Source of the DNA: Polynucleobacter sinensis
GTDB lineage: Bacteria; Pseudomonadota; Gammaproteobacteria; Burkholderiales; Burkholderiaceae
Reading direction: 5' to 3'
Length of the DNA stretch: 64,000 nucleotides
Assembly: GCF_001595985.1 (NCBI RefSeq)
Contig: NZ_LOJJ01000002.1
Coordinates: forward strand, 1-64,000
Part shown: piece by piece, positions 45,982-61,178 of the stretch
Layout: each line of letters starts with the position of its first letter
How positions within the stretch are numbered: the first letter of the stretch is position 1
Program-made: the position numbers and the translations under genes
Notes under the pieces: generated by a model
Database searches by the model: none
What the model saw: the letters and a program-made list of their open reading frames with translations, nothing else
Told to the model about the DNA's origin: nothing

Positions 45982-48108
45982 CTAGTCACCCATTGCCGCA
46001 ATCACATTTGCCTGGGTCATCGGCAAATGTCGAATTCGAATACCCATCGCATTTGAGACTGCATTTGATATCGCTGCAGGTATAGGTCCTGTCACACCCT
46101 CACCCACCCCAAGTGGCGGCTCATCAGGACGATTGATTAATTCAATCTCAACCTTCGGCACCTCACTAAAAGTAAGTATTGGGTAATCCTCCCAGTTTTG
46201 CGAGGTAATCCTGGTTCTATCAAATTGCAATTGCTCTTTTAATGTCCAGCTAGTAGCCTGAACAATACCGCCCTCAATTTGATTTAAGACGCCATCGGGG
46301 TTAATGATCAAACCACAATCAATGGCTGCATATACATTCTTAACTCGAATATTTTCTTCGATAGAAACTTCCACTATCACTGCGGCATAATTTCCCACAT
46401 TTTTATAGCGCGCGAATGCGACACCAAACCCACGTGTACCATCGCCCTTGAAGTTTGGCTGCCAATTGGCCTTTGCTCTTACCGCGTTGAGTACGGCAAT
46501 CGCTCTTTCATCCTTTAGGTGGCGTAGACGGAACTCAATTGGGTCTAACTTCGCCACAGCGGCTAACTCATCTATAAAGGACTCAATGGCAAAGACATTA
46601 ATATAAGCACCTAAAGCTCGTAAGGCAGAAGTACGAATCGGCATTGACTGTATTGCGTGATTAACTACTTTACAGTTTGCAAATTCATAGTAGGGAATAG
46701 CATTGCGCTGACTACCCCCACCCATTGCAATTGGCATATCCACCGGCAAAGGAGCTTCCATACCTTCACCCATATGCCACGCCGCTAGTAATCCAGGCTT
46801 GGGCTGTCGCCCTGGGCGTCCAATATGCCGGTTGCCCCAAATCTCTTCATGCCACTGCACAATCTGACCGTTTGAATCTACCGCGCCAGAGAGCTTTACA
46901 GCCATAGCCGGGCCAAACGGCTCCCAAGCAAACTCGTCCTCACGCATCCATTGCACGCGCACTGGAGCACCATCAAGCTCCAGTGCTAGTAATGCAGCAT
47001 CTAAAGCAACATCATCAGCCCCATTGTGCCCATAACACCCAGCACCTTCAGCATGACGAACAATGATTTGCTCGTAATCTAATTTCAGAATTTTGCTAAG
47101 CTCATCTCTGAGAGCGTAGATAGATTGACTGTGTGACCAAACCTCGAGACAGTTATCGTGCCACCAGGCCAATGCGCACGAAGGGCCAATCGAGGCGTGG
47201 GCTAAATACGGTCTAGTGAAAGTTGCGTTAATTTGAGTACCGAGACTAGCTGAAGTATTCCCAACATCCTTCAAAACCTCATCTTCAGATTTTTGCTGGT
47301 ATAAAAATTGCTCGAGCTGATTCATATCAGGAAGCAAAGGCTCTTCACTCCACTTGCAGTTATGCCCGATAGCCAACATTGCCTTGATTGCTTGCTCTTC
47401 TCTTTCCGCCACAACGCCAATAAAACTACCGTCGCGAACGACTTTTTTAACGCCAGCCATCTCTAAAATGGGAGCCTCATCAAATGAAATTAATTTTGCA
47501 TAAAGTGATGGGGGACGGGCAATGCGACCATGCAACATCCCTGGCAATGTCATGTCATGTAAAAATGCTGCGCCAGTAATTTTGCTTAAGATATCCTTGC
47601 GTGGCAAAGAGCGGCCTACCGCCCCATACTCCTGGGGACTTTTTGGGCTGGCCCTGCCATTAGCAGCCACATCCAAATCTACTTCATCTAATAGATCCCA
47701 ATATGATATTTGCAAGGGAGAGTTATCAGCGGAAATGATCCCGTCACTCACCTTTAAGGCACTTATTGGCAGACTGAATTTAATCGCAGCCGCCTCCAAA
47801 AAAAGATGTCGGATTTCTGCACAGGCATAGCGCATACTTTCGCCACCCTCTTGAATCGACCGACTACCCGAAGTAGAGGCTTCGTTTGGACTAACTGTAG
47901 TATCTACTGGAAGTACATCAATTCTGGAATAAGCAACATCTAATTCTTCTGCAGCCATTTGCGCGATTGCAGAAACAATTCCCTGCCCAATCTCAACCTT
48001 ACCTGGGCGAATCGTAACGGTACGATCCGGATTGAAGCTCACACGCTGACTCAATCTTGGATTAGCAATTAAATACTGCGGCAATAAAGAATCCATTGAA
48101 TTAGTCAT
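45982..48108 (-). CDS. Molybdopterin-binding subunit of a xanthine oxidase-family hydroxylase
   Basis: A 708-residue large subunit that hydroxylates an aromatic, often N-heterocyclic, ring carbon with water. Mo-cofactor regions are visible as RPGKVEIGQGIVSAIAQMAAEEL, HNGADDVALDAALLALEL, RTSALRALGAYINVFAIES and near the end PLGVGEGVTGPIPAAISNAV, which holds the catalytic Glu. It has no Tat signal, unlike isoquinoline oxidoreductase-type large subunits. It overlaps the iron-sulfur subunit gene by eight bases. No FAD (CoxM) subunit is present, so electrons probably go to a cytochrome or ferredoxin, as in IorAB/NicAB-type enzymes. Confidence 0.86.
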   Translation of the reverse strand: MTNSMDSLLPQYLIANPRLSQRVSFNPDRTVTIRPGKVEIGQGIVSAIAQMAAEELDVAYSRIDVLPVDTTVSPNEASTSGSRSIQEGGESMRYACAEIRHLFLEAAAIKFSLPISALKVSDGIISADNSPLQISYWDLLDEVDLDVAANGRASPKSPQEYGAVGRSLPRKDILSKITGAAFLHDMTLPGMLHGRIARPPSLYAKLISFDEAPILEMAGVKKVVRDGSFIGVVAEREEQAIKAMLAIGHNCKWSEEPLLPDMNQLEQFLYQQKSEDEVLKDVGNTSASLGTQINATFTRPYLAHASIGPSCALAWWHDNCLEVWSHSQSIYALRDELSKILKLDYEQIIVRHAEGAGCYGHNGADDVALDAALLALELDGAPVRVQWMREDEFAWEPFGPAMAVKLSGAVDSNGQIVQWHEEIWGNRHIGRPGRQPKPGLLAAWHMGEGMEAPLPVDMPIAMGGGSQRNAIPYYEFANCKVVNHAIQSMPIRTSALRALGAYINVFAIESFIDELAAVAKLDPIEFRLRHLKDERAIAVLNAVRAKANWQPNFKGDGTRGFGVAFARYKNVGNYAAVIVEVSIEENIRVKNVYAAIDCGLIINPDGVLNQIEGGIVQATSWTLKEQLQFDRTRITSQNWEDYPILTFSEVPKVEIELINRPDEPPLGVGEGVTGPIPAAISNAVSNAMGIRIRHLPMTQANVIAAMGD

Positions 48109-48583
48109 TCTTACTACCCTCGCTCAAGCCAGCTACTTTTTGAATCGCGCGTACAAATCTGTTGTGCGTTCCACAGCGGCATAAATTTCGATCAAGCGCT
48201 TCCCGAATTTCCGCCTCAGAAGGGGTTGGATTTTTGTCTAACAATGCTTTTGCAGTCATGAGAATTCCGTTGGCACAATAACCACATTGAGCAGCCTGTT
48301 CATCAATAAAGGCTTGCTGCAAAGCGTGGAGATGATCGGGAGTTCCAATGCCCTCGATAGTAGTAATCTCCTTACCAACACAATCCCATAGAGGCACATC
48401 ACAGGAGTGAATTTTTTGCCCGTTAATCAGAACACTACAAGCGCCGCACAATCCAAGACCGCACCCAAAGCGGGTTCCAAATAATTGCAAATCATTTCGC
48501 AAAATGTAGAGCAATGGGGTATTTGGGTCTGCGCTAATAGAGTAATTGACTCCATTTACCTTTAGAGCAATTGAATCCGTCAT
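48101..48583 (-). CDS. [2Fe-2S] subunit of the molybdenum hydroxylase
   Basis: A 160-residue two-cluster protein. The plant-type site has Cys41, 46, 49 and 61 (CGLGLCGACS...HSC), and the second site has Cys100, 103, 135 and 137 (QCGYCANG...LCRCG). It passes electrons from the Mo centre. The ATG overlaps the TGA of a decayed frame upstream (ATATGA), suggesting that another gene once preceded it in the operon. The set matches NicA/IorA-type small subunits. Confidence 0.9.
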   Translation of the reverse strand: MTDSIALKVNGVNYSISADPNTPLLYILRNDLQLFGTRFGCGLGLCGACSVLINGQKIHSCDVPLWDCVGKEITTIEGIGTPDHLHALQQAFIDEQAAQCGYCANGILMTAKALLDKNPTPSEAEIREALDRNLCRCGTHNRFVRAIQKVAGLSEGSKND

Positions 48584-49032: not shown

Positions 49033-49668
49033 CTAATCGTCTTGATTTTTAGAATGCTGGGGGGCTATCTGCTTCCTTAATTTTTTTAAATACTCCTGAT
49101 AGTGCGCAGCATCTCCATATTCAGCAAATTGACTGTAATAAGGGTGGGATAGATATACACGTTTAGCATGCTTTATAGGACACCAATATTGCTCTGTCTT
49201 TCCCGCAATCTCACGCGTGTAAGCTATGAGCCCATTTCCATAAGAGCAATATGCGCAATTAATCTTTTCCAAAAAATTTAAGTAAGCTAAGTGCGCACGA
49301 TCAAAAACGATGTAATCGCCTCGCTTCGCCTTTTGAATTCCAAATAATGGAAAGCAAATTGCCTGATAAAGCGAGACAAAAATATCTAAAAAAATTAAGG
49401 GGGCTATTAGTGCATAGATGAATGGAGCAGCAATAAATGACTTTAAATCCGCGGTCCAAAGATACTTCAAGAGCCCCATTTTGAATCGCTTTTGCTGCTC
49501 TGCCACTTCTCGCTCAAACTGTATACGCTTTTCTTCAAAGTCATGCGCCAAGGTTTCTTTACGGCGAATCATTTCTAGCGTCAGCTCGGCCTCAAGGGCT
49601 TGAATACGATCTGCTATCTCGTCAATTCGATTGGTCACGTAATCACCCCTTAAATGAGTATCAGCCAA
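49033..49668 (-). CDS. Conserved-looking membrane-anchored hypothetical protein
   Basis: A 211-residue protein. Residues 10-65 form a charged coiled coil (ADRIQALEAELTLEMIRRKE...). One or two transmembrane helices (about 77-105, FIAAPFIYALIAPLIFLDIF) follow. A cytoplasmic domain carries INCAYCSYGNGLIAYTREIA and EQYWCPIKHAKR, where CxxC...C and His could bind a metal. The C-xYC-SYGNG...YWCPIKHA pattern seems conserved in Burkholderiales but its function is unknown. It stands alone between two catabolic operons. Confidence 0.6.
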   Translation of the reverse strand: MADTHLRGDYVTNRIDEIADRIQALEAELTLEMIRRKETLAHDFEEKRIQFEREVAEQQKRFKMGLLKYLWTADLKSFIAAPFIYALIAPLIFLDIFVSLYQAICFPLFGIQKAKRGDYIVFDRAHLAYLNFLEKINCAYCSYGNGLIAYTREIAGKTEQYWCPIKHAKRVYLSHPYYSQFAEYGDAAHYQEYLKKLRKQIAPQHSKNQDD

Positions 49669-49763: not shown

Positions 49764-50735
49764 TCACTCGATACTTACACCAGAAAGTTTGACGTCCTTC
49801 TGAAATCGAGCGGAATCCCGCGCAATTTGCGCAGCAAAATCTTGCGGCTTATCGGCAATAATTTTCAGGCCGAGTGATTCTAGTTTTGCTCTAATCGCAG
49901 GATCTTTGAGTGCCTTAGCAAATTCAGCATTTAGCGTGGTCACCGTTGCTTTTGGCGTACCAGCAGGCGCAACTATTCCGTACCAAATGCCAGCTTCTAC
50001 ATCAGGCAAACCAACATCCAAAGCAGATGGAATATCCGTAGCTTGCGGATGTCGCTCTTTACTTGCAACGAATATAGCCTTGAGGCGTCCAGAGCGAATA
50101 TATTGAATCACATTGGAAAAATTGTCACAAATCATTGAAACTTGCCCGCCCAAAACATCCTGAATGGCAGGGGCTGGACCTTGATATGGAATGTGCGTCA
50201 TATCTATACCTGAATACCGCTTGAGACTCTCGCCACATAAGTGACTTGTACTTCCATTACCAGCCGAGGCATAGGTTAAGGTTCCAGGAGAGGATTTTGA
50301 TAAAGCAACTAACTCACGAATATTGTTTGCATTGATTTTAGGATTGATTACTAAAACATTGGGGGTGGAAGCAATATTAATTACGGGTTCAAAATCTTTT
50401 TCGGGATTGTAGCTAAGCTTGGGGTATATCCAGGGATTGATTGCCAATACCCCTGTCGTAGCTAGCAGAAGGGAAGATCCATCAGCAGGAGATTTAGCAA
50501 CCTTGGCGGCTCCAAGAGAGCCATTTGCACCGGGTCTATTTTCAACAATTATTGTGCTGCCAATCGTCTTACCCGCCTCAGGTGCAATTAAACGAGGAAT
50601 AAGATCGCTAGTGCTTCCAGGTGGAAAAGGAACGGTGATAGCAATTGTTTGGGGGAGCGGATCTCGTGCTAGAGCACCATTGGAGATGCAGACAAAACCA
50701 ATTAAGGTGCAGCAGGCGATTAGTAATTTTTTCAT
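49764..50735 (-). CDS. Bug/TctC-family periplasmic solute receptor
   Basis: A 323-residue receptor, last gene of the eight-gene monooxygenase operon, 27 bases after the FAD-monooxygenase. Motifs: LPQTIAITVPFPPGSTSDLIPR, GSTIIVENRPGANGSLGAAK, SPADGSSLLLATTGVL and IPYQGPAPAIQDVLGGQ. It is probably the receptor for the operon's substrate or an intermediate; a second receptor, PBP-type, starts the same operon. Confidence 0.9.
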   Translation of the reverse strand: MKKLLIACCTLIGFVCISNGALARDPLPQTIAITVPFPPGSTSDLIPRLIAPEAGKTIGSTIIVENRPGANGSLGAAKVAKSPADGSSLLLATTGVLAINPWIYPKLSYNPEKDFEPVINIASTPNVLVINPKINANNIRELVALSKSSPGTLTYASAGNGSTSHLCGESLKRYSGIDMTHIPYQGPAPAIQDVLGGQVSMICDNFSNVIQYIRSGRLKAIFVASKERHPQATDIPSALDVGLPDVEAGIWYGIVAPAGTPKATVTTLNAEFAKALKDPAIRAKLESLGLKIIADKPQDFAAQIARDSARFQKDVKLSGVSIE

Positions 50736-50762
50736 ACAACCTCCATCATTTTGGAAAATTCA

Positions 50763-51980
50763 TTATTGGACTTCTTGTGCGCTTTTAAGGCTGGTGATTA
50801 AAGATGCTTTCAATATATATTCTCTTGCCAGCTTCGGATCCTCAGCACGTCGACGCAAATCATCCAACTTAGCCTGACGAACGGAGCGCTCATTGGACTC
50901 GAGCAACTCCTTGTTCTGGGCGGCCTGGGAATTCACATGCTCCATTGAAACATAACGACGCTGCCGTGAATATTGATCCAGCAATTCATCGCTAGCGCCA
51001 TGCAAAATGACTTGCAATAATTTATCCGCCAAATTAAATGCATCATGGACGCCACTATTTAGACCCATGCCACCCAAGGGATTATTAGCGTGCGCAGCAT
51101 CACCAGCTAGAAGAACTCGGCCCAGTCTATATGTAGATGCGACGCGGTGCTGAACCCTATAAATTGTCTTATGCTTCACCTCGTAATCAGACGAATAATG
51201 CATTAAACCCTGCAAGCGCTTTTGCACAGCACGATCTGACTTTGTTTCTTCGTCACTTTCCTCTGGGGGAACGGGAAACATAATTCTCCATAAATCTGGG
51301 GCACGTAACATCAAACACCATTCGCTTGGATCGGCGATATAAGTGACATGAGAGAGATTTTGAATATGATCGGCATACTCAAAAGGAGTGCTGATAGAAA
51401 AGAATTTCTCAGGGAAAAAGAATCCTTCGTAATCTATATTGAGACTCTTCCTGACGGCACTACCAACACCGTCGCAGGCTATTAACCAATCCGCCTGAAA
51501 TATTCTACTTTCATCTTGATTAACTACGTCAATAAAAATACCAGCCTCTGTTTGACCCGCATTTTCTACTCGCGATGAAAAATGTAAATTGACATTCTCC
51601 ATAGCCTCCAGTCGAGCTCTCAATATTTTTGTTAACTTCCATTGCTCGCACTGCAATCTATATGGAAACTTTGTGTCAGCACTTAATGCCGAGAAATCAA
51701 ATTCAGCGATTAGTGAAAAATCTTTGCGATCTCTAAAATGAATGGCGGGAACAATATTTCCTTGCGCAATAAGCTCCTCGTTCACACCCAATGTATCGAG
51801 TAAATCTAAAGTTGATGGATGAAATGTTGAGGCACGCAAGTCTATGGATAGATCATCATTGGACTCAAATAGGTCTACAAATACCCCTTCTTTGGCAAGC
51901 AAATATGCGAGCGATAAGCCCACAGGACCTGCGCCAATAATTGCAACCTTATTCTTATTTGAAGCGCTCAAAATCATCAT
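50763..51980 (-). CDS. FAD-dependent aromatic monooxygenase (PHBH/UbiH-type)
   Basis: A 405-residue group A flavoprotein hydroxylase. The ADP-binding GAGPVG is at 16-21, the DG motif is in WLIACDGVGSAVRKSL, and the GD motif is in VLLAGDAAHANNPLGGMGLNSGVHDAFNLA. It would hydroxylate a phenol or N-heterocyclic ring using NAD(P)H and O2. It sits in the same operon as the HpaB-type oxygenase and amidase, so two oxygenation steps may act in series. Confidence 0.88.
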   Translation of the reverse strand: MMILSASNKNKVAIIGAGPVGLSLAYLLAKEGVFVDLFESNDDLSIDLRASTFHPSTLDLLDTLGVNEELIAQGNIVPAIHFRDRKDFSLIAEFDFSALSADTKFPYRLQCEQWKLTKILRARLEAMENVNLHFSSRVENAGQTEAGIFIDVVNQDESRIFQADWLIACDGVGSAVRKSLNIDYEGFFFPEKFFSISTPFEYADHIQNLSHVTYIADPSEWCLMLRAPDLWRIMFPVPPEESDEETKSDRAVQKRLQGLMHYSSDYEVKHKTIYRVQHRVASTYRLGRVLLAGDAAHANNPLGGMGLNSGVHDAFNLADKLLQVILHGASDELLDQYSRQRRYVSMEHVNSQAAQNKELLESNERSVRQAKLDDLRRRAEDPKLAREYILKASLITSLKSAQEVQ

Positions 51981-52020
51981 CCCCTTATATGTGTTTTATT
52001 ACTTTCATGGAATTCATTAC

Positions 52021-53376
52021 TCAAACTGACAGAATTTTCTCGACTGTTAAGCCGCACCTCATAAGAGCTTCATCCGCCCCGCCTTGCGATACGAGCATGA
52101 TGCCGGTAGGAGCTTCATTGAAAGGATGATTAGGTAGCGATAGTGCGCAGCCATCGAGAAAGTTGAACAATCCTGGATTTCTTAACATCAACCCATTGAA
52201 TCTGAAATACTCTTCATCTGAACGTAAATCACTTAACAATGGTGCAATTACTGGAACTGTTGGCATGATCCATAAATCATCATTTAAGAACTCCTCTCGC
52301 CAAGCCTTAATGAGCAATTGACGCTCCAGCATCGTTTGCACATAAATTGCGCTAGTGACTTCTTTTCCCTTAGCGATCCTTGTAGAAACTCTTGGATCGA
52401 CTCCTTCACCCATTGAGGCCAATATATTTTCAAATTCCGAATTAGCCTCAGCAGAAACTATCCTAGGTTGACCTTGAATCTGAATAACCTTTTCGACTAC
52501 TTTTGAGTTGATGGGATGCAAATGAGCACCACTCTTTGCCAATCTCTCGATAGTGCTTAAGTAATTCCTTTTGACGCTCTCATCCATTGCATCGAGAACA
52601 ACATTTTCAAGAACCCCAATATTCAATCTACTTGCGGGAATCTCAAGACTCTTTTTAATCGGCTGATCAACAAGGACGCTATCCATTGTTTGACAGCATT
52701 CAACCGAAGGGGCGAGCATACCAACCGAGTCCAGTGACCTAGATAATGGCAAAACACCCTCCATGGAATACCTGTTAGCGCTAGATTTAAAGCCAACCAA
52801 GCCACATAATGCGGCAGGGATTCGACAAGATCCACCGGTGTCGGAGCCAATGGCAATCGTGGCCATTTGGTCAGTAACGCTAATAGCCCCGCCCGAAGTA
52901 GATCCTCCCGGAATCCTTCCATTACTGCGGTCATAAGGATTTTGCGGCGTACCAAAATGGGGATTAAGACCTAAACCAGAATAGGCGAACTCCGTCATAT
53001 TGGTTCTTCCAACAATAATTCCATCCGCACGCCGAATACGAGCAACCACGTCGGAATCTTCTGTCGCAGGATCTTTGCTTCTTAAGACCTTGGAACCAGA
53101 CGTTGTAACCTGACCAGCGATATCAAAAAGATCTTTGATGGAAACGGTAACACCTGCCAAGGGCCCAAGCTGCAGCCCCTTTTCCAGTAAGACATCCTGC
53201 GTTTTGGCAACAGCAAGCGCTTCCGCTTCAGAAACCTTCAAGAAGGCTCTTACACCCTCACCTGATGGATTCTGAATATTCTCAATACATTTTGAAACGT
53301 ATTCTTCTGTAGAAGTCTCATGCGATCTAATGCGACGTTGCAACCCTGCAATTGACATCAACCCTGAATGGGACAT
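52021..53376 (-). CDS. Amidase signature family hydrolase
   Basis: A 451-residue amidase with the Ser-cisSer-Lys triad: Lys81 (VSIKDLF), a cis-Ser in PGGSTSGG (159 or 161) and the nucleophile Ser183 in SDTGGSCR. It is related to GatA/AtzF-type enzymes. It overlaps the cupin gene by one base. In this operon it would hydrolyse an amide formed by ring opening of a nitrogen-containing substrate, releasing ammonia or an acid. Confidence 0.87.
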   Translation of the reverse strand: MSHSGLMSIAGLQRRIRSHETSTEEYVSKCIENIQNPSGEGVRAFLKVSEAEALAVAKTQDVLLEKGLQLGPLAGVTVSIKDLFDIAGQVTTSGSKVLRSKDPATEDSDVVARIRRADGIIVGRTNMTEFAYSGLGLNPHFGTPQNPYDRSNGRIPGGSTSGGAISVTDQMATIAIGSDTGGSCRIPAALCGLVGFKSSANRYSMEGVLPLSRSLDSVGMLAPSVECCQTMDSVLVDQPIKKSLEIPASRLNIGVLENVVLDAMDESVKRNYLSTIERLAKSGAHLHPINSKVVEKVIQIQGQPRIVSAEANSEFENILASMGEGVDPRVSTRIAKGKEVTSAIYVQTMLERQLLIKAWREEFLNDDLWIMPTVPVIAPLLSDLRSDEEYFRFNGLMLRNPGLFNFLDGCALSLPNHPFNEAPTGIMLVSQGGADEALMRCGLTVEKILSV

Positions 53377-53768
53377 TAATTTACCTCAGGGTCGTAATAA
53401 TGAATTTCCACCAACATGCATCCGTTCACCGATTTAAAGGGGCCATGTGGCGTTCCTGGAGGACGGCAAGCATAAGTGCCCGGCTGAAATGATGTGCCTC
53501 CATTCCCATTTTCATCCACCCCAACAATCAAATCGCCTGACAATAAGTAAACCTCTTCCCAGTAGTCATGCTCAAATGGCGCAGTTGTATATACGCCTGG
53601 ATCAAAACGCAAATGCCTTGTTCGGGACCCACGTTTATTTTTTTCATCTAGCTTACCTGCAAGAATCTGTTGCTGAATCCCGGACGGATAACCTGGTGGA
53701 ACCTCCCAACCTTTGCTCAAATCTACCGTGTGGAATTCTTTCCATTCTTTTTCTAAAGCCATTTGCAT
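53376..53768 (-). CDS. Cupin-domain protein
   Basis: A 130-residue single cupin. Metal-ligand motif 1 is in FEHDYWEEVYLLSGDLIVG, with a second in RPPGTPHGPF, and EIHYYDP ends it. It resembles small cupins of aromatic pathways (2,4'-dihydroxyacetophenone dioxygenase-like or ChrR-like). Enzyme or stabiliser cannot be decided. It lies 12 bases after the DUF2848 gene, in tight order with the amidase. Confidence 0.77.
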   Translation of the reverse strand: MQMALEKEWKEFHTVDLSKGWEVPPGYPSGIQQQILAGKLDEKNKRGSRTRHLRFDPGVYTTAPFEHDYWEEVYLLSGDLIVGVDENGNGGTSFQPGTYACRPPGTPHGPFKSVNGCMLVEIHYYDPEVN

Positions 53769-53780
53769 CTCCTCACTTAA

Positions 53781-54455
53781 TTAATCTACGATCTCTAAAG
53801 AATTTGTTTTGTAAGAGCAGGTAATTTTTCTTTTCAAAACAGGATCTTCAAGCTCCATCTCAAAAAGATCACCGCCACCAATTTGACCAATCACTGAATG
53901 GGTGCCACAAAACATTGCTGTACCAACAGGCAGTTCTTTTGAGCCGATGTAGCGCTCTATCAATTCTTTTGGGGGCAGCATTCTGCCAACGGATCCCTCC
54001 TGGTAGAGCTCTCTCTTGCCGTTTCGGGTTACCCAAGATCGAGTTACCAAACTATCCCAGTGACTCTCTACCTCATCAAAGCGCCATACTTCCGATGCAA
54101 CAGGCTTTGGGCACATTTGCTTTGAAACAGTCACACCATATGCTTCGACTTTTCTATCCGTATGATCCGAACCTAATCCAACATAAAGCCCATCAGGCAG
54201 AGAAAACAATACATACTCAACCTCACCACTGGAGTCATTTCCCACAACTTGAAAAGTTGATGAAGTGGAGAGTAAATTTTCTGCCCCTCTATAGAAACAA
54301 GGGACCGTTCTGGGCCTTGCTACTCCCAACTTCTCCAGCTCTTCAATATGATGTTCTACCGCTTCTTTATTTCGGCCAGTCCATCCCGCAATAACCAACT
54401 GATTGATTTCACAAGCGACATCTTTGCCGCCAGATTTAAAAATTAAATTTGCCAT
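53781..54455 (-). CDS. DUF2848 family protein
   Basis: A 224-residue protein matching DUF2848 by its motifs NQLVIAGWTGRNKEAVEHHI, GLYVGLGSDHTDRKVEAYGV and GTAMFCGTHSVIGQIGGGDL. The fold resembles FAH-type hydrolases (GDxFEMELEDP near the end), which suggests a C-C or C-N bond cleaving role. It lies between the flavin reductase and cupin genes in the monooxygenase operon. The family often occurs with amidases and Bug receptors in Burkholderiales; activity unknown. Confidence 0.78.
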   Translation of the reverse strand: MANLIFKSGGKDVACEINQLVIAGWTGRNKEAVEHHIEELEKLGVARPRTVPCFYRGAENLLSTSSTFQVVGNDSSGEVEYVLFSLPDGLYVGLGSDHTDRKVEAYGVTVSKQMCPKPVASEVWRFDEVESHWDSLVTRSWVTRNGKRELYQEGSVGRMLPPKELIERYIGSKELPVGTAMFCGTHSVIGQIGGGDLFEMELEDPVLKRKITCSYKTNSLEIVD

Positions 54456-54470
54456 TTTTTTCCTAAAAAC

Positions 54471-55016
54471 TTACGCCCAAACATGATCAATAAAATTAAA
54501 ACTTTCATCCTTCAATAGAGCCTCATTAATACTGATATTTTTAACATGAGTGCCAAAGCACCCTCGATAAAACAGAAGTGGATCAGCACTTACACCTGCA
54601 TCAATTTGCTCTACCCTACCAATCAGAATCCTGTGATCCCCACCCGGGAAAATAGACTCCACGGTACATTCTAAAAAAGCCAGAGAACCGGAAAGTTTTG
54701 CACAACCATTCTCTCCTCGAGAAAAATGAATCTCAGACCAATTTGCTGAAGAGGGGCGAGCAAAACTCATGGCAATCTTCTCTTGATCATGAGCAAGCAC
54801 ATTCACTACAAATTTTTTTGACTCGGTAAACAAAGGTGTAATGTTTGAAGTATTAGCCATTGAAAATAAAATCAGTGGCGGATCCAATGAGACCGAAGCA
54901 AATGAATTAATCGTCACGCCTGAATCCGCCCCTTCCTCATTAGCAAGGGTGATCACAGCAACACCAGTTCCATAACATCCAAGAGTTTGTCGAAAATCCT
55001 TTGGGCTAAAGTTCAT
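54471..55016 (-). CDS. Flavin reductase (HpaC-like)
   Basis: A 181-residue NAD(P)H:flavin oxidoreductase. It starts FSPKDFRQTLGCYGTGVAVI, and VTINSFASVSLDPPLILFSM is the FMN-binding signature. It supplies reduced flavin to the HpaB-type oxygenase whose gene is 31 bases upstream. Size and order match HpaBC-like two-component systems. Confidence 0.85.
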   Translation of the reverse strand: MNFSPKDFRQTLGCYGTGVAVITLANEEGADSGVTINSFASVSLDPPLILFSMANTSNITPLFTESKKFVVNVLAHDQEKIAMSFARPSSANWSEIHFSRGENGCAKLSGSLAFLECTVESIFPGGDHRILIGRVEQIDAGVSADPLLFYRGCFGTHVKNISINEALLKDESFNFIDHVWA

Positions 55017-55047
55017 TCATTAATCACTTATTGAACAATTTTCTCTA

Positions 55048-56535
55048 CTAGGCGGCAGGCATTAATACTGCCGCTGGACTCTGAACTTTCGGCAAATCAT
55101 ACCCAGCCATAAATTGATCAACCATACCTAAAGCTCTTTGCCAGTTGTAATTTCGGTATGAGTGGCCTCTAGTTACCATATTTGCTCCGGAATAGAACAT
55201 TTCATACTGTAAATGCCTAGATCCAAATTCCGATCCAACTGCATCCCAAGCAAGCTTGAATAATTTCACTCGACCTTCGCTACTAGCAGCTGGTGATTGT
55301 TGGGTCTTATTAATCATTCCTAGAATTTCTTCATTAGCAAAATCTTGTACAGAGGAAGGAACCATAATCATTCCCCCGCCAGATAGCTCTCTAATGCTTT
55401 GAATAAATTTAGGATATAACTGTTGTGTCAAAACATTAGCCGCATACAGTCGCTGTGGATTTGGAACAAAGAATTCGCCACGCTGAGAGCCAGAAGCCTC
55501 CATTGCCTCAACCAAACCCTCAACCATAGATACTTCTGCAGCCATTTGACCCAAAATTTCTACTACAGGTGGAAAGCCAATAATTCCATTTGTTTCGGCA
55601 ATCTTTCTAGCAATCCCTAATAAAAACCGCATCTTCACCATGAAACGAATTTGGCACTGGTAGTTCTGGTAAACGTGAGCCGGAGTCTGATGCCATTGCG
55701 CTGACGCCATCTCTACATTTTTACTAACGAATACCCGTTCCCAAGGAATCTTGACTTCATCGAAGTACAAAACCGCATCATTTTCATCAAACCTACTTGA
55801 TAAGGGATTGTCAAAGGTCGATACACTCGAAAATTCATAAGACTTGCGCGAAAGCATCTTCACACCCTTAGTCGACAATGGAATTGCCGCGCTAAATGCA
55901 AGATTTTCCTCACCAGGTCTCAGGGGCTGAATTGATGAAATAAAGACTTCATTTGCCATTGGGCAACCAGTACCAAGCATCTTGGCGCCCTTGATAGTAA
56001 TTCCCTCAGCATCCTCATCAACAATCGACGCCACGAGACTCTCTGCCTGCTCTCCAGCCGACTTACTCTTGTCGGCCTGTGGATTAATAATGACATAAGT
56101 TAAATAGATATCGTTATCACGGGCATATTCGTAATAATCAGACAGCGATTGCGCATAGCGATCGCCAGATTTCTTAAAGACATCCAAGCCCATATACATT
56201 CCACTTAATGCAGAACCTACATGATCTGGAGATCTGCCAAGAAAACCACACGACAACTCAGCCCAGGCTTCTAAGGCTTTTCTTCTTTGAATCAGCTCTG
56301 GCAAGCTTTTTGGCAATTGCCATGTTCTACTAACCCTTTTCCCCGTTTTGGGTGACTCAAAGGTCATCAAATCCAGATTCTGCGGATTGGCCTGATAATC
56401 ATAGAGCTTTCCGACAGACTGCACTGATTCTGAAAATGCTGGATGGTTAACATGATTCTTAATTAATTTTCCATCCAAATACATTGACCGACCATCATTT
56501 AGACTCTGTATATGCTGCTTTCCGTCCTTAACCAT
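55048..56535 (-). CDS. Two-component flavin monooxygenase, large subunit (HpaB family)
   Basis: A 495-residue FADH2-using oxygenase of the acyl-CoA dehydrogenase fold. Family features are LSDYYEYARDNDIYLTYVII, the FAD/substrate region GAKMLGTGCPMANEVFI, EVKIPWERVFVS, QNYQCQIRFMVKMRFLLGIA and RELSGGGMIMVPSS. It hydroxylates a phenol or, as in pyridine-degrading actinobacteria, may oxidise and open a nitrogen ring. It is the second gene of the operon, 23 bases after the PBP receptor. 4-hydroxyphenylacetate genes are absent, so the substrate is probably different. Confidence 0.88.
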   Translation of the reverse strand: MVKDGKQHIQSLNDGRSMYLDGKLIKNHVNHPAFSESVQSVGKLYDYQANPQNLDLMTFESPKTGKRVSRTWQLPKSLPELIQRRKALEAWAELSCGFLGRSPDHVGSALSGMYMGLDVFKKSGDRYAQSLSDYYEYARDNDIYLTYVIINPQADKSKSAGEQAESLVASIVDEDAEGITIKGAKMLGTGCPMANEVFISSIQPLRPGEENLAFSAAIPLSTKGVKMLSRKSYEFSSVSTFDNPLSSRFDENDAVLYFDEVKIPWERVFVSKNVEMASAQWHQTPAHVYQNYQCQIRFMVKMRFLLGIARKIAETNGIIGFPPVVEILGQMAAEVSMVEGLVEAMEASGSQRGEFFVPNPQRLYAANVLTQQLYPKFIQSIRELSGGGMIMVPSSVQDFANEEILGMINKTQQSPAASSEGRVKLFKLAWDAVGSEFGSRHLQYEMFYSGANMVTRGHSYRNYNWQRALGMVDQFMAGYDLPKVQSPAAVLMPAA

Positions 56536-56558
56536 ATCTATACCCTCTAATAATTCGA

Positions 56559-57782
56559 TTATTTTTTAACTAAGGAGCACACACTCTTTGAAAGAGGCAT
56601 AAATGCATCTTTTCCTGGAATCGTTGTCAAAACTTTGTAGTAATCCCAAGGTGACTTCGACTCAGCAGGACTCTTAACTTGAACCAAGTACATGTCATGG
56701 ATCATCCGACCATCCTCGCGAATGTAGCCATTCTTCGCAAAGAAATCATTAATTGGCATGCTCTTCATTTTTGCCATTACCGCTTGCGTATCATCCGTTC
56801 CTGCAGCTTTTACCGCTTTTAAATAATGCATCGTGGATGAATAGACGCCAGCTTGAGCCATTGTTGGCATACGCTTATGGCGCTCAAAGAAGCGACGAGA
56901 CCACTTCCTAGTGTCATCATTGAGATCCCAATAAAATCCGGTCGTCAAGATCATTCCCTGTGCTTTTTGCAAACCAATCGCATGAATATCCGTAATGAAT
57001 ACATGCAATCCAGCAAGAGTTTGCTTGCCACTAGTATTCAATCCAAACTCACTAGCCTGGTTAACTACTCGAACTGTATCCCCGCCAGCATTTGCCAGAC
57101 CAATTGCCTCCGCGCCAGATGCTTGCGCTTTAAGAATCAAGCCTGACATATCTGCGGTATTTGTTGGATGCTTCGCTTGACCCAACACCTTTCCACCGCC
57201 AGCAATAACCGCATCAGCTGCGTCCTTTTCTAGAGAGGCGCCAAGTGCATAGTCAACCGTAAGGAAATACCAAGTCTTTTTACCCCTCTCCATAAGTGCG
57301 GTAACAGTATTGCGTGCCAATGAATAGGTGTCATAGACGTAATGCACTGTAGTTGGAGAGCAGTTTTCGTTAGTTAAACGTGTTGTTCCGCCACCAGATA
57401 CCAAGACAATCTTATTTTTTTGACGAGCAATTTCTGAAACTGATAGCGCTACACCCGATGGCAGAAGGTCGACAATAGCGCTAACCTTATCGTTGTCATA
57501 CCATTCCCGGGCTTTATTTGCGGCAACATCAGGCTTGTTTTGATGGTCTGCTGAGATCAACTCAATAGGTTTGCCTAGAACTTTTCCACCAAAATCTTCA
57601 ATAGCCATTTTGGCAGCAACTACCGATCCATCACCGCCAATGTCGGAAAATAATGATGACATATCTGTCATCACGCCGATCTTAACGGGTTGCCCAGCTG
57701 TCTGGGCTTGAGCCCCAGAACAACAAAATATTGCTGAAAGGGATGCAGCCAACAAACGATTTTTCCATTGCGGTTTGATCAT
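56559..57782 (-). CDS. Branched-chain-type periplasmic binding protein (type 1)
   Basis: A 407-residue exported receptor (signal to about AQAQT). VKIGVMTDMSSLFSDIGGDG, GKPIELISADHQNKPDVAAN and VDYALGASLEKDAADAVIAGG fit the LivJ/UrtA-type family, which usually binds amino acids or aromatic acids. The associated LivFGHM permease is not in the window. It opens the monooxygenase operon, so it may bind the aromatic growth substrate. A perfect FNR-type box lies 59 bases upstream of its start. Confidence 0.87.
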   Translation of the reverse strand: MIKPQWKNRLLAASLSAIFCCSGAQAQTAGQPVKIGVMTDMSSLFSDIGGDGSVVAAKMAIEDFGGKVLGKPIELISADHQNKPDVAANKAREWYDNDKVSAIVDLLPSGVALSVSEIARQKNKIVLVSGGGTTRLTNENCSPTTVHYVYDTYSLARNTVTALMERGKKTWYFLTVDYALGASLEKDAADAVIAGGGKVLGQAKHPTNTADMSGLILKAQASGAEAIGLANAGGDTVRVVNQASEFGLNTSGKQTLAGLHVFITDIHAIGLQKAQGMILTTGFYWDLNDDTRKWSRRFFERHKRMPTMAQAGVYSSTMHYLKAVKAAGTDDTQAVMAKMKSMPINDFFAKNGYIREDGRMIHDMYLVQVKSPAESKSPWDYYKVLTTIPGKDAFMPLSKSVCSLVKK

Positions 57783-57840
57783 ATAGCCTCCAGGTAATAA
57801 TAGTTAAGTAGCTTTAGTTTTTTTACTTTACTACTTTTTT

Positions 57841-57946: not shown

Positions 57947-58477
57947 GTGAAAAAAACTTTTAGATCACCAATATCAGTCTCAAAAAAAGAGCTTCTAGAT
58001 AAGCCGGGCAATACAGACAAGCGCTTCAGACAGCTCATCTACGACCTCTCTGTCGCTGGCAGCTTGCTCGAGGTTGCCAGGCAAAATTTGGCGAAAAAAT
58101 TAGGGGTCTCTCCTCCGCAATACAACATTCTCATGGTGATAGCCCAGTATCAAGGTGCAAATGGCCTAAGATTTACTGAGGTTGCCGACCACCTACACGT
58201 GACAGTGAGTCATGTCACAAGCGAAGTAAAGAAGCTGGAAAAATTGAAGTGGCTCAGTGTGGTTACCAGCCACGAAGACAAGAGAGCTAGACTGGTCAAA
58301 ATCAATCAATCCGCCGAAAGCAAAATCCTTTCCCTCGGAAATGACCAGCGAGGAATCAATGATCACCTCTTCCGAAATTTAAGTAAATCTGACTTCGATA
58401 AACTTAGCGCAATCATGGCGCAAACGGTTGAAGATTTTATGAAAACGATTGAGCTACTGAAATCTCGGCACCTGTAA
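57947..58477 (+). CDS. MarR-family transcriptional regulator
   Basis: A 176-residue winged-helix regulator from GTG 57947; no ATG is better placed. Core motifs: LSVAGSLLEVARQNLAKKLGVSPPQYNILMVIAQ, LRFTEVADHLHVTVSHVTSEVKKLEKLKWLSVV and the wing SHEDKRARLVKIN. Length is slightly above average through an N-terminal tail. It is divergent from the monooxygenase operon and probably represses it until an aromatic ligand binds. Confidence 0.87.
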   Translation: MKKTFRSPISVSKKELLDKPGNTDKRFRQLIYDLSVAGSLLEVARQNLAKKLGVSPPQYNILMVIAQYQGANGLRFTEVADHLHVTVSHVTSEVKKLEKLKWLSVVTSHEDKRARLVKINQSAESKILSLGNDQRGINDHLFRNLSKSDFDKLSAIMAQTVEDFMKTIELLKSRHL

Positions 58478-58585: not shown

Positions 58586-59443
58586 TTAAATACTTTCCAA
58601 GATTTCAATTGCGCGAAGGTATACCGGTTTATCAATCATCTTTCCATTGACTTTCACGGCGCCCAAACCTTGATTTAAACCCTCTTGAAATTTTTCTACA
58701 ATTTCCTGAGCCTCAGCAATTGCCTCTGGAGTTGGCGTATAGCAATCATTCACGGCCTCCAAGAATTTAGGATGGACCACTACAGCGCCACGAAATCCCA
58801 ATTCTCTGGCCTGCTTGAGCACCACCTTAAATTCATCTACTTCGCCAAGATTGGCAATCGAAGCAATAAACCCAATCGGCTGAATACGGGCAGAGCGACA
58901 AGCTTGCAAAACCATCATGCTTGGAACGAATAAGGCTTCTGGCGTAGGAATGCCGCCCAGATCAAGTGAATAATCCTCGCTACCTAGCATCATCCCCATA
59001 TTTCTAGAGTCAGCAGCAGCTATGTCAAATAAATGCGGCATAGCAAATGCACTCTCAATTTGAATTAAGAATTTCACTGCACCGCTCTGCATATTGCCCG
59101 CTTTCTCTAGGTCGCCAACCAACTGAGAAAACAGCTGAATGTCGCGAGCATATTCAACCTTGGGCAGAACTACGATATCAAGACCATCCTGGACTGCAGC
59201 ACGAAGATCGGTTACGGCGGTATTTAAATCCCCATTAATACGTACTGCTACCAGCTTGTTAGAAGCCTTTATTAAGGCAATGGATTCTCGCAACTTCTCC
59301 CTTGCAATTGCTTTTCTTTGTGGATGAGTGCCATCCTCTAAATCCAAGATAACCACATCGCATGGCTTTGAGATTGCACTGAGAAGTAACTTCTCATTGT
59401 CCGCAGGTACAAACAGAAAAGATCTCAATATTTTTTTACTCAT
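58586..59443 (-). CDS. HpcH/HpaI aldolase/CitE-family CoA-ester lyase
   Basis: A 285-residue TIM-barrel lyase. RSFLFVPADNEKLLLSA, DVVILDLEDGTHPQRK, VAVRING, IVLPKVE, FLIQIESAFAM and MLGSEDYSLDLGG fit citrate lyase beta-subunit relatives that cleave or hydrolyse citramalyl-, malyl- or 3-hydroxy-acyl-CoA. It overlaps the CoA-transferase gene by eight bases. The pair suggests activation to a CoA ester followed by cleavage to acetyl-CoA and an oxo acid. Confidence 0.87.
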   Translation of the reverse strand: MSKKILRSFLFVPADNEKLLLSAISKPCDVVILDLEDGTHPQRKAIAREKLRESIALIKASNKLVAVRINGDLNTAVTDLRAAVQDGLDIVVLPKVEYARDIQLFSQLVGDLEKAGNMQSGAVKFLIQIESAFAMPHLFDIAAADSRNMGMMLGSEDYSLDLGGIPTPEALFVPSMMVLQACRSARIQPIGFIASIANLGEVDEFKVVLKQARELGFRGAVVVHPKFLEAVNDCYTPTPEAIAEAQEIVEKFQEGLNQGLGAVKVNGKMIDKPVYLRAIEILESI

Positions 59444-60626
59444 TTACATCTCCTAATTTTTTAGCTATCCATTGATCGTTATCTTGCCCAATCGTTGGGG
59501 CTGCGCGCCTAATGGCTGGACGCTGCCCATTAATTTTGTATGGGACCGCATGAATAAGTAGCGATGGACCTTCGGCGGTTTGCGTCTCAACCAACATCTC
59601 TCTATCCACCATGTAAGGATGACTGATGAGATCGGCAATATCGCATACCTGACCAGCAGTAATATCGCGTATTTTAAAAAAATCTAAGGCCTCATCCAAA
59701 GAGAGTTTGCTGATATGGGACTGAATTAATCCATCTAAGGCATCAATATTTTTGAGTCTGGCTTCATGAGTTGAAAACCGCGCATCCTTTAATCCCTCTG
59801 GATAGCCAATTCCCTCAAATAATCTGACTAATGTCCCCTCCATACCTGCAGAGAGCGCAATCCACTTTTCATCTTTAGTCTGATAAACATTGCGTGGCGC
59901 ATGGGTTGGAGACCGACTACCCGATCTCGGCGTTACGGCGCCTGTGAGTTGATATTCAGCGGCCTGAGGACCGAGAATGGAGAAAAGCGGCTCAAATAAA
60001 GAGAGATCTACCTCTTTAACCGACGGCTTCTGATTGGATTTTTGCTGATGGAGTAATGCTAAAGCAACTGATGCGCCATAAATTCCAGCAACACTATCAG
60101 CCATCGCAAAAGGTGGCAACACCGGCGGGCGATCCGCGAAACCGTTCATCGAGGCAAAGCCACTCATTGCTTCTATTAATGAGCCAAATCCACCTCTCTC
60201 TGCGAATAACCCAGTCTGACCCCACCCTGAAATACGAACAACGATCAATCGCGGATTAATCAGCTCCAGCGCATCTCGACCTAAGCCCATCTTCTCCAGA
60301 GTACCTGGACGAAAATTTTCAACCAAAATATCAGCATTACTCAATAAATTTTTAAGGCTATCCAAGCCATCTGGCTCTCTAAGATTGAGACACACACTAT
60401 CTTTATTGCGAGCATAAGCCGCCCAATATGTACTGACACCTTGACGTTGCCAAGAACGTAATTCATCACCCTTACCGGGTGACTCAACCTTAATCACTTT
60501 AGCACCCATATCTGCCAATACATGAGTCATCATATTTCCAGAAACAAGTCTTGATAAATCAATGACCGTTACGTTTGATAATGGCGCCAATCCACTATCT
60601 TGATTTGTGTTTTCTATATCAGACAT
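59436..60626 (-). CDS. Family III CoA-transferase (CaiB/BaiF)
   Basis: A 396-residue CoA-transferase. It begins APLSNVTVIDLSRLVSGNMM, with VIKVESPGKGDELRSW, KDSVCLNLREPDG and the catalytic Asp region ENFRPGTLEKMGLG. It transfers CoA between short carboxylic acids. It overlaps the CitE-like gene and is divergent from a PaaI-type thioesterase, with an inverted repeat (60651-60702) between. Confidence 0.88.
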   Translation of the reverse strand: MSDIENTNQDSGLAPLSNVTVIDLSRLVSGNMMTHVLADMGAKVIKVESPGKGDELRSWQRQGVSTYWAAYARNKDSVCLNLREPDGLDSLKNLLSNADILVENFRPGTLEKMGLGRDALELINPRLIVVRISGWGQTGLFAERGGFGSLIEAMSGFASMNGFADRPPVLPPFAMADSVAGIYGASVALALLHQQKSNQKPSVKEVDLSLFEPLFSILGPQAAEYQLTGAVTPRSGSRSPTHAPRNVYQTKDEKWIALSAGMEGTLVRLFEGIGYPEGLKDARFSTHEARLKNIDALDGLIQSHISKLSLDEALDFFKIRDITAGQVCDIADLISHPYMVDREMLVETQTAEGPSLLIHAVPYKINGQRPAIRRAAPTIGQDNDQWIAKKLGDVNE

Positions 60627-60650
60627 TTTTACTTGATCGAATTTCTAAAG

Positions 60651-60702
60651 ACTATTGAATATGAGCAAATGCTAAAATTACATCCACTGAATATTCGATA
60701 GT
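60651..60702. promoter_or_regulatory. Imperfect 12-base inverted repeat, possible operator
   Basis: ACTATTGAATAT (60651-60662) and ATATTCGATAGT (60691-60702) match 11 of 12 as an inverted pair. They lie between the CoA-transferase and thioesterase genes. Confidence 0.45.
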
Positions 60703-60778
60703 TGATATATTTCCATTCAAAAAATAATACAGGCATTACTCTTTAGAGCACCGTCCCACCAAAAAACTTACATACATT

Positions 60779-61162
60779 ATGAATACTATTGAGAATCCTT
60801 TTCTAGAGTCTCTTGGAGTGCAGCTGACAGAATGGCGTCCTGATTTCGCGGAGATGCAATTGAATATTTCAGAAAACCATAAAAATAGAATTGGTCGAAT
60901 TCAGGGTGGACTGATGTGCACCTTACTCGACGCTGTTTGTGGCTATGCCGGCCTTTATGTTCCACCTGATCAACCGCCATTAAGAAATGTCACGCTTTCA
61001 TTAACAACCAACTTCTTAAATTCCGCCGAAGGAAGTACTCTGGTTGCAAAAGGCTTCATTGAGCGTAAGGGCAAGGGGATCTATTTTGCACGCGGAGAAG
61101 TGTGGCTTGACTCCTCCATTCTTTTGGCTACTGGCGTCGGCACATTCAAATACATTCGATAA
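60779..61162 (+). CDS. PaaI-family hotdog thioesterase
   Basis: A 127-residue hotdog-fold protein. NRIGRIQGGLMCTLLDAVCGYAG carries the conserved HGG-like segment and the Asp of the family (here QGGLMCTLLD). It would hydrolyse acyl-CoA that traps CoA in the pathway. It is a single gene divergent from the CoA-transferase. Confidence 0.84.
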   Translation: MNTIENPFLESLGVQLTEWRPDFAEMQLNISENHKNRIGRIQGGLMCTLLDAVCGYAGLYVPPDQPPLRNVTLSLTTNFLNSAEGSTLVAKGFIERKGKGIYFARGEVWLDSSILLATGVGTFKYIR

Positions 61163-61178
61163 AGCTAATACACGTTGC

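Follow-up and report, generated by a model that had tools for sequence, protein, structure and literature searches.

Operon layout and a second genomic copy

The stretch of DNA analyzed here, referred to as the window, comprises the first 64,000 positions of a contig (C2) of Polynucleobacter sinensis, a bacterium with a genome of 2.32 Mb. The subject of this study is an operon on the minus strand (positions 49764-57782), in which eight open reading frames (ORFs) follow one another in the order binding protein, HpaB, HpaC, DUF2848 protein, cupin, amidase, flavin adenine dinucleotide (FAD) monooxygenase (FMO), and Bug protein. According to the ORF coordinates, the intergenic spacing along the operon is 23, 31, 15, 12, -1 (an overlap), 40, and 27 bases. 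The operon has a GC content of 0.436 vs 0.438 for the window. The following features were identified, starting from the regulatory side:

57947-58477, plus strand: MarR-type regulator, divergent from the operon (Pfam MarR 34.6 bits, cut-off 24.6)
57802-57813, minus strand: weak candidate operator AGYTACTTAACT, a near-palindrome between the MarR gene and the operon
56559-57782, minus strand: first gene, periplasmic binding protein of the ATP-binding cassette (ABC) type, branched-chain amino acid/urea-like (Peripla_BP_6 376 bits)
55048-56535, minus strand: oxygenase part of an HpaB-type two-component flavin monooxygenase, R-H-Y clade (Pfam HpaB_N 285 bits, HpaB 201 bits)
54471-55016, minus strand: HpaC-type flavin reductase (Flavin_Reduct 126 bits)
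53781-54455, minus strand: DUF2848 protein, divergent member of the fumarylacetoacetate hydrolase (FAH) superfamily, probable C-C hydrolase (PF11010 261 bits, full-length)
53376-53768, minus strand: small single-domain cupin, candidate ring-opening enzyme (Pfam 24.8 bits vs a cut-off of 27; predicted fold)
52021-53376, minus strand: amidase-signature amidase (Pfam Amidase 251 bits; NCBIfam PRK07056 519 bits, cut-off 447)
50763-51980, minus strand: group A FAD monooxygenase, PnpA/HspB-like (FAD_binding_3 224 bits)
49764-50735, minus strand: last gene, Bug/TctC-type binding protein (TctC 216 bits)

An earlier reading of this stretch, made from its letters alone (the sequence-only reading), had described eight genes packed with gaps of 40 bases or less, and the coordinates on one strand bear this out. 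The gene families it named were confirmed by Pfam, except that the cupin lies just below the cut-off and was confirmed by its predicted fold. Its view of a catabolic operon with an undescribed combination of genes is likewise supported: full-text searches of literature that leaves out most subscription journals gave no paper on a gene cluster of HpaB, amidase, cupin, flavin reductase, and MarR, or on a set of flavin monooxygenase, amidase, and reductase acting on a pyridine ring. The divergent MarR gene, a second copy of the operon core, and the presence of FMO and Bug in place of ABC genes go beyond that reading.

HpaB and DUF2848 are each present in two copies in the host genome. The second copy of the operon (G000:C18; L010:1968-11772) starts from a MarR homologue in the same divergent position (L010:1968-2567), followed by binding protein, HpaB, HpaC, DUF2848, cupin, and amidase, and continues with what look by sequence like two ABC ATPases and two permeases, that is, an apparently complete branched-chain-type ABC transporter. 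No match to the FMO or the Bug protein was found at this copy; in the window, these two genes occupy the position of its ATPase and permease genes. The cupin is the most conserved protein between both copies (94% identity), ahead of HpaB (83%), the binding protein (81%), DUF2848 (69%), HpaC (63%), MarR (57%), and the amidase (55%). A transposase-like ORF, judged by its sequence, lies just past the second operon.

DUF2848 is rare in related genomes: it was found in 3 of 121 among relatives, and across the class in 4 of 369 (one of them under the cut-off), the host genome being counted in both. HpaB, DUF2848, and the cupin, often also with HpaC, amidase, and MarR, occur together in other bacteria. 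The eight-gene layout is not due to chance, because six of the eight genes recur, with their order kept, at a second genomic site and HpaB, DUF2848, and cupin co-occur in other organisms. The putative MarR operator has a different standing. At up to one mismatch, AGYTACTTAACT has one match in the window, where shuffled sequences gave a mean of 0.53 and 35 of 100 shuffles contained at least one, so that it is not significant alone. Exact matches in the genome number three, one per operon copy and one at C1:13881; locus L015 has the site as well. As one of the three genomic matches thus lies elsewhere and the window match carries no significance, the site is at most a weak candidate.

A separate clade of HpaB-type oxygenases

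The window HpaB scores below both NCBIfam cut-offs for 4-hydroxyphenylacetate (4-HPA) hydroxylases, with 318.6 against 480.2 bits for HpaB-1 (TIGR02309) and 265.5 against 885.2 for HpaB-2 (TIGR02310). Alignments were read for five solved relatives, three of them near-identical, and in these the active site shows the motifs R-[ST]-P-D-Y and [TN]-H (R-Y-H), whose Arg, Tyr, and His surround the substrate hydroxyl and hold the phenol. At those positions, the window protein has R-S-P-D-H and T-Y (R-H-Y). All 31 module-linked HpaBs share this exchange, with either D or E and either T or S in the motifs.

To these were added samples not selected by DUF2848, one at the level of the order and one at the level of the phylum, which together gave 41 HpaB-family matches outside the host genome (19 and 22). 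The order-level sample comprises the 19 matches over the cut-off, with 10 weaker ones left out, and its comparison of neighbors rests on small loci of 4 kb. R-H-Y occurs in nine of the 41 matches: seven have cupin and/or DUF2848 within the 4-kb locus, and two (L133 and L248) have the same amidohydrolase. At order level, this corresponds to 5 of 19, four with cupin or DUF2848 (L114, L123, L124, L134) and the fifth (L133/L166) with the amidohydrolase instead; at phylum level, to 4 of 22, three with cupin and one with the amidohydrolase. Neither cupin, nor DUF2848, nor that amidohydrolase was found in any of the 32 loci whose HpaB lacks R-H-Y (14 order-level, 18 phylum-level).

In a tree of 51 rows, the 36 R-H-Y sequences fall on one side of a single branch (support 99/97, recovered in 100% of 200 bootstrap trees), and the other side holds 15 phenol-type and other sequences, some of them long-branched. 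The module HpaB belongs to a separate clade whose active-site residues are altered, and it lies apart from the sampled hydroxylases of phenol and 4-HPA. Assignment of the HpaB to a known non-heterocycle substrate, named beforehand as a possible refutation of the sequence-only reading, did not emerge from the phylogeny. By enzyme type only, pyrrole-2-carboxylate monooxygenase was considered as a candidate, which the title of a reference cited in PMC6165268 describes as a two-component flavin enzyme. Literature on homarine yielded no usable lead.

One R-H-Y HpaB stands in other surroundings. On a plasmid of Rhizobium sp. ACO-34A (L181), it is accompanied by amidase, polysaccharide-deacetylase-like, 502-aa Amidohydro_1, flavin reductase, and arylmalonate-decarboxylase-like genes, with no cupin match.

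DUF2848 as a divergent FAH-superfamily protein

The Pfam label of PF11010 (DUF2848) is unknown function, and a full-text search for DUF2848 gave no paper in a corpus of 5.39 million, which leaves out most subscription journals, so that a description elsewhere is possible. An AlphaFold model built from 56 sequences reached a predicted local distance difference test score (pLDDT) of 95.1, and all 15 Foldseek matches to it at E ≤ 0.001 were FAH-superfamily enzymes. After structural re-alignment (VIA-align), 49 listed entries at Z 13.5-21.6 were of the FAH type, one of them titled merely uncharacterized (3rr6), and the next row dropped to Z 4.7. For some of these entries and of the Foldseek matches, FAH-superfamily membership is general background and not part of the title. 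The top matches were the fumarylpyruvate hydrolases 4maq (Z 21.6, root-mean-square deviation 2.8, 188 residues) and 6j5y (Z 20.9), on a par with other FAH enzymes.

Profile comparison led to the same family. With hhalign, the DUF2848 profile matched a profile of 27 FAH (PF01557) proteins, from which the incomplete loci L187 and L193 were left out, at E 6e-11 and 97.1% probability over 163 columns; as negative controls, cupin and HpaB profiles gave E 0.1 and 0.36. In this alignment, H36/E39, E78/E80, D97, R101, and K112 of DUF2848 stand opposite the FAH His-x-x-Glu, E-x-E, Asp, Arg, and Lys residues, and all seven are invariant in 56 of 56 rows. The E-x-E...D metal ligands and the lid His-x-x-Glu dyad form the catalytic set of FAH enzymes, from which the DUF2848 positions take their catalytic meaning. 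Searched directly by sequence, the solved structures gave a marginal result (best E 0.073), with four matches, all of the FAH type. DUF2848 is thus a divergent FAH-superfamily protein and, judging from model and alignment, probably cleaves an acylpyruvate-type C-C bond. The sequence-only reading had included DUF2848 in its suggested route; what changes is that it is an FAH-family protein.

The cupin as partner of the R-H-Y oxygenase

The neighborhood of DUF2848 was surveyed in the best 80 of 582 confirmed loci. Partners were counted by tblastn; longest-ORF calls are unreliable in GC-rich loci and include some false ORFs. The 80 loci hold HpaB in 22 cases, cupin in 35, an amidase of the window type in 45, and FMO in 3. 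FMO (at least 35% identity) and HpaB were found together in none of them, a 23% FMO match in L048 being uncounted. Cupin is present in all 22 HpaB loci, compared with 13 of the 58 other loci (Fisher p 5e-11; the loci are not independent, and some stop at contig ends), and it accompanies R-H-Y HpaB in Pseudomonadota and Acidobacteriota. The cupin is the tightest partner of the R-H-Y HpaB.

The model of the cupin (pLDDT 94.1) shows the standard small-cupin fold. H67, E71, E72, and H108 are invariant in 33 of 33 rows and compatible with a metal site. Ring-cleaving cupin dioxygenases bind their metal by 2-His-1-Glu or 3-His; which of the four residues would be ligands here is our assumption from the general cupin motif.

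A few loci of this survey and related ones deserve to be recorded in their own right. In L056, cupin, DUF2848, and amidase lie beside a UbiD decarboxylase and a flavoprotein of the acyl-CoA-dehydrogenase fold, possibly a third oxygenase type for the same lower module. On a plasmid of Pantoea anthophila (L101), DUF2848, amidase, DUF4286, and a transporter of the major facilitator superfamily stand beside a GntR regulator with no annotated oxygenase; annotation places DUF4286 near the FMO in L177 and L180, too. A cysteine-desulfurase-like class V pyridoxal phosphate enzyme is found inside the module in L016 (Herminiimonas, by Pfam) and beside it in L099 (Caballeronia NK8).

The FAD monooxygenase and an apparent exchange of parts

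The nearest solved relatives of the FMO are PnpA (194.6 bits), a p-nitrophenol monooxygenase, and HspB, the 6-hydroxy-3-succinoylpyridine 3-monooxygenase (167.2 bits), with the next at 98.6 bits; no B6 ring-opening oxygenase was among the 60 matches listed of 120 solved relatives. The comparison with PnpA and HspB concerns the proteins themselves, and the annotated HspB-type NdpD on plasmids is merely 30.9% identical to the FMO.

Relatives of the FMO with 38-45% identity are found beside cupin (L016, L087, L096, and L172, the same as L224) and beside Amidohydro_1 and AA_synth proteins (L177, L180, L222). Others lie near an arylmalonate-decarboxylase-like protein (L178, L179, L221, L223), and one beside none of these partners (L225). 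A short contig (L086) carries FMO and DUF2848 with a UbiD decarboxylase. The R-H-Y HpaB, in turn, occurs with the amidohydrolase in L166 and L248. This 398-aa protein belongs to Pfam Amidohydro_1; the one beside HpaB in L166 is 66% identical to that beside the FMO in L177/L180, and the one in L248 69%. A single genome (G846) has FMO with cupin, HpaB with cupin, and HpaB with amidohydrolase at three separate places.

Two unrelated oxygenases thus each occur with two unrelated downstream enzymes. Because each oxygenase is found both with the cupin and with the same amidohydrolase, FMO and R-H-Y HpaB probably perform equivalent steps as alternatives for one reaction, and the simplest reading of these gene contexts is that cupin and amidohydrolase perform equivalent next steps. 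The two monooxygenase types that the sequence-only reading saw in the operon are both there; they look like alternatives and not like a pair of linked steps. The distal end of the window operon, minus the amidase, has its counterpart in L172, where cupin, FMO, and Bug (60%, 40%, and 59% identical to the window proteins) follow in this order. For this reason, the window operon looks like a hybrid of both versions, with FMO and Bug at the position of the ABC genes.

A comparable arrangement of other families was noticed on plasmid pLA3 of Novosphingobium pentaromativorans (L182). There, a 37% identical FMO has as its neighbors a protein annotated as FAH family, a different cupin, a glucose-methanol-choline oxidoreductase, and a hydrolase of the metallo-beta-lactamase fold, following the same logic of hydroxylase, cupin, and FAH protein.

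Proposed pathway and known systems

Taken together, we tentatively favor, at somewhat under an even chance, a hybrid operon for the uptake and degradation of a ring compound, the likeliest type being a hydroxylated N-heteroaromatic, for example a hydroxypyridine or the corresponding acid. The binding protein(s) would import the substrate, and MarR would govern expression. HpaB, supplied with reduced flavin by HpaC, would hydroxylate the ring, with the FMO performing an equivalent hydroxylation of the same or a related substrate. The cupin would then open the hydroxylated ring; by Pfam, there is no obvious ring-opening enzyme among the other seven genes. The amidase would hydrolyze the amide arising from ring opening (in the case of a pyridine, an N-formyl or amide group), and DUF2848 would split the resulting acylpyruvate-type intermediate to pyruvate or a similar acid. 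We infer the order of steps, ring opening by the cupin, the equivalence of the oxygenases, and, for the substrate, both its identity and that it is an N-heteroaromatic.

The closest described logic is that of the kpi pathway for 4-hydroxypyridine in Arthrobacter sp. IN13. According to PMC7356986, a flavin hydroxylase forms 3,4-dihydroxypyridine, whose ring is opened by the Amidohydro_1-family dioxygenase KpiC; a hydrolase removes the N-formyl group, and the FAH-family KpiD is proposed, not shown, to split 3-formylpyruvate. For each of these four classes of step, the window module has a candidate, a likeness from gene logic. The enzymes differ. The kpi set consists of the group A hydroxylase KpiA, the Amidohydro_1-type dioxygenase KpiC, the alpha/beta hydrolase KpiB, and the classical FAH protein KpiD (PMC7356986), whereas the window module has HpaB/HpaC together with the PnpA/HspB-like FMO, a cupin, an amidase-signature enzyme, DUF2848, ABC and Bug binding proteins, and a MarR gene. 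KpiC and the 398-aa amidohydrolase share the Pfam family Amidohydro_1, a likeness at the family level. Since the gene logic matches this described pathway, an N-heteroaromatic substrate of the hydroxypyridine type is the best inference; the nitrogen-containing aromatic of the sequence-only reading stands to that extent, as a proposed substrate.

Other systems resemble the module in part. The gentisate pathway combines the cupin gentisate 1,2-dioxygenase, a large bicupin, with fumarylpyruvate hydrolase. It shares with the module the sequence of hydroxylase, cupin, and FAH-family hydrolase, and the two top structural matches of DUF2848 are fumarylpyruvate hydrolases; the window module differs by its 130-aa single cupin and the amidase that is usually added. 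The 4-HPA 3-monooxygenase HpaBC has two Pfam families in common with the operon, from which the window HpaB is set apart by R-H-Y, its separate clade, and its scores under the 4-HPA cut-offs. The lumichrome/riboflavin pathway was rejected, as it uses, according to PMC12746152, a P450 and a Rieske dioxygenase, neither of which is among the eight genes.

Several observations weigh against the proposed pathway. The proposed substrate is an assignment by gene logic, and Amidohydro_1 is a huge, mostly hydrolytic family. The fold of the cupin is common to isomerases, cyclases, lyases, and dioxygenases, and the cupin LumY of lumichrome degradation acts on products of pyrone hydrolysis, after ring opening by another enzyme (PMC12746152). 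Amidase was not found in 7 of the 22 HpaB loci, two of which (L075 and L094) end early. Cupin occurs without either oxygenase in 11 of the 35 cupin loci of the survey and also in L173, L174, and L176; a scan of 20 ORFs from eight of the 11 loci recognized, apart from the decarboxylase and flavoprotein of L056, no oxygenase in the others, and Pfam matched none of its families to eight of the ORFs. The phylum sample contains five FMO relatives from beyond the host genome: one lies with cupin, one with amidohydrolase, two with the arylmalonate-decarboxylase-like gene, and one with none of them. An HpaB with 45% identity and no module partner (L230) has R-Y-Y, and a single FAH sequence gave no match to the DUF2848 profile (E 0.28). 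FMO and HpaB may also act here in sequence and not in parallel. Finally, amidase without cupin, HpaB, or FMO is present in 23 of the 80 DUF2848 loci (including Pseudomonas, Cupriavidus, Ralstonia, and Pandoraea), and 21 loci have none of the four partners, 14 of these with a CaiB-type CoA transferase (26-28% identity). From these two groups of loci, it follows that DUF2848 also works outside ring oxidation and outside the module.

Alternative explanations

The same genes can be arranged into other routes. Oxygenase and amidase together might open the ring, if hydroxylation beside the nitrogen gave a lactam that the amidase hydrolyzes; the cupin would then act as a hydratase or isomerase on the open-chain product, ahead of cleavage by DUF2848. 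LumY provides a precedent for a cupin acting after ring opening (PMC12746152), isomerases and lyases are known among small cupins, and the 23 loci with DUF2848 and amidase but no cupin or oxygenase would suit such a division of labor. Yet the cupin accompanies HpaB even in loci that lack the amidase (the seven HpaB loci mentioned and L168-L170), which fits a step directly after hydroxylation, and two loci with an R-H-Y HpaB and three with an FMO have an Amidohydro_1 enzyme in place of the cupin. We consider this lactam route unlikely, if well worth keeping in view. A benzenoid substrate is a still less probable choice: ordinary catabolism of phenol or 4-HPA type, in which the amidase attacks an amide side chain, would agree with the family matches of HpaB and HpaC, with PnpA as nearest solved relative of the FMO, and with the FAH-family HpcE, which PMC7356986 names in 4-HPA degradation. 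It conflicts with the scores of the HpaB below both 4-HPA hydroxylase cut-offs, with its position outside the sampled phenol-type rows of the tree, and with the exchange of residues at the phenol-binding Tyr and His positions.

The route invoked by the sequence-only reading, in which an HpaB-type oxygenase opens a pyridine ring as in actinobacteria and amidase and succinate-semialdehyde dehydrogenase (SSADH) lead on to succinate, appears very improbable here. HpaB, reductase, and amidase do share one operon, the window contains an SSADH (61179-62588) above its NCBIfam subfamily cut-off (TIGR01780, 709.6 vs 646.35), a 60% identical SSADH lies near the FMO module of L016, and another is annotated near the FMO relative of L177. 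The window SSADH, however, lies outside the operon and is separated from it by the MarR gene as well as the CitE/CoA-transferase pair. None turned up in 20 kb of sequence at the second copy, and SSADH was the best-matching query in only one of the 80 DUF2848 loci (another aldehyde dehydrogenase in two further ones), so that the SSADH is not supported as a pathway partner. The cupin and the FAH-type DUF2848 would also be left without a role.

Neighboring genes

Downstream of the operon and on the same strand, positions 45982-48583 encode a two-subunit molybdenum hydroxylase (large and [2Fe-2S] subunits), and such enzymes often hydroxylate N-heteroaromatics. The pair shows no conservation with the module and, its membership being unproven, was left out; the queries matched none of the 22 HpaB/DUF2848 loci. 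Matches to the FeS subunit occur in 6 of the 80 DUF2848 loci, all without HpaB and cupin, and L167 has a molybdenum hydroxylase near its module. Between hydroxylase and operon lies a 211-aa ORF (49033-49668) with no Pfam or NCBIfam match.

On the other side (58586-62588), a CitE-type lyase, a family III CoA transferase, a small thioesterase-like protein, and SSADH resemble a CoA route of the itaconate/citramalate type. This flank of CitE, CaiB-type CoA transferase, and SSADH was also left out, as the MarR gene intervenes; the CitE query matched none of the 80 DUF2848 loci, and CaiB-type matches among them are distant and lie outside HpaB/cupin loci except for L029. The wider region has the appearance of a catabolic island, with eight Bug/TctC-type binding proteins by their sequence (two checked by Pfam) over 40 kb (24186-63576) among many catabolic genes.

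Outlook

Beyond the host organism, these gene contexts may point to a widespread and undescribed ring-degradation module of exchangeable parts, a generalization that we regard as possible but doubtful. R-H-Y HpaB/HpaC or a PnpA/HspB-like FMO would hydroxylate an N-heteroaromatic, the ring would be opened either by a 130-aa cupin, then a ring-opening dioxygenase of a novel type, or by an Amidohydro_1 enzyme, DUF2848 would be a new family of acylpyruvate hydrolases, and the window operon would be a rare natural fusion with both oxygenases.

R-H-Y HpaB genes carry names of 4-HPA hydroxylases in public records, and their residues and neighbors argue otherwise. DUF2848 and the small cupin that accompanies this oxygenase each gain a role that can be tested biochemically, and a few enzyme assays would decide between the readings of the module. 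The apparent exchange of unrelated oxygenases and of likewise unrelated ring-opening candidates offers a handle on how pathways for N-aromatic compounds are assembled.

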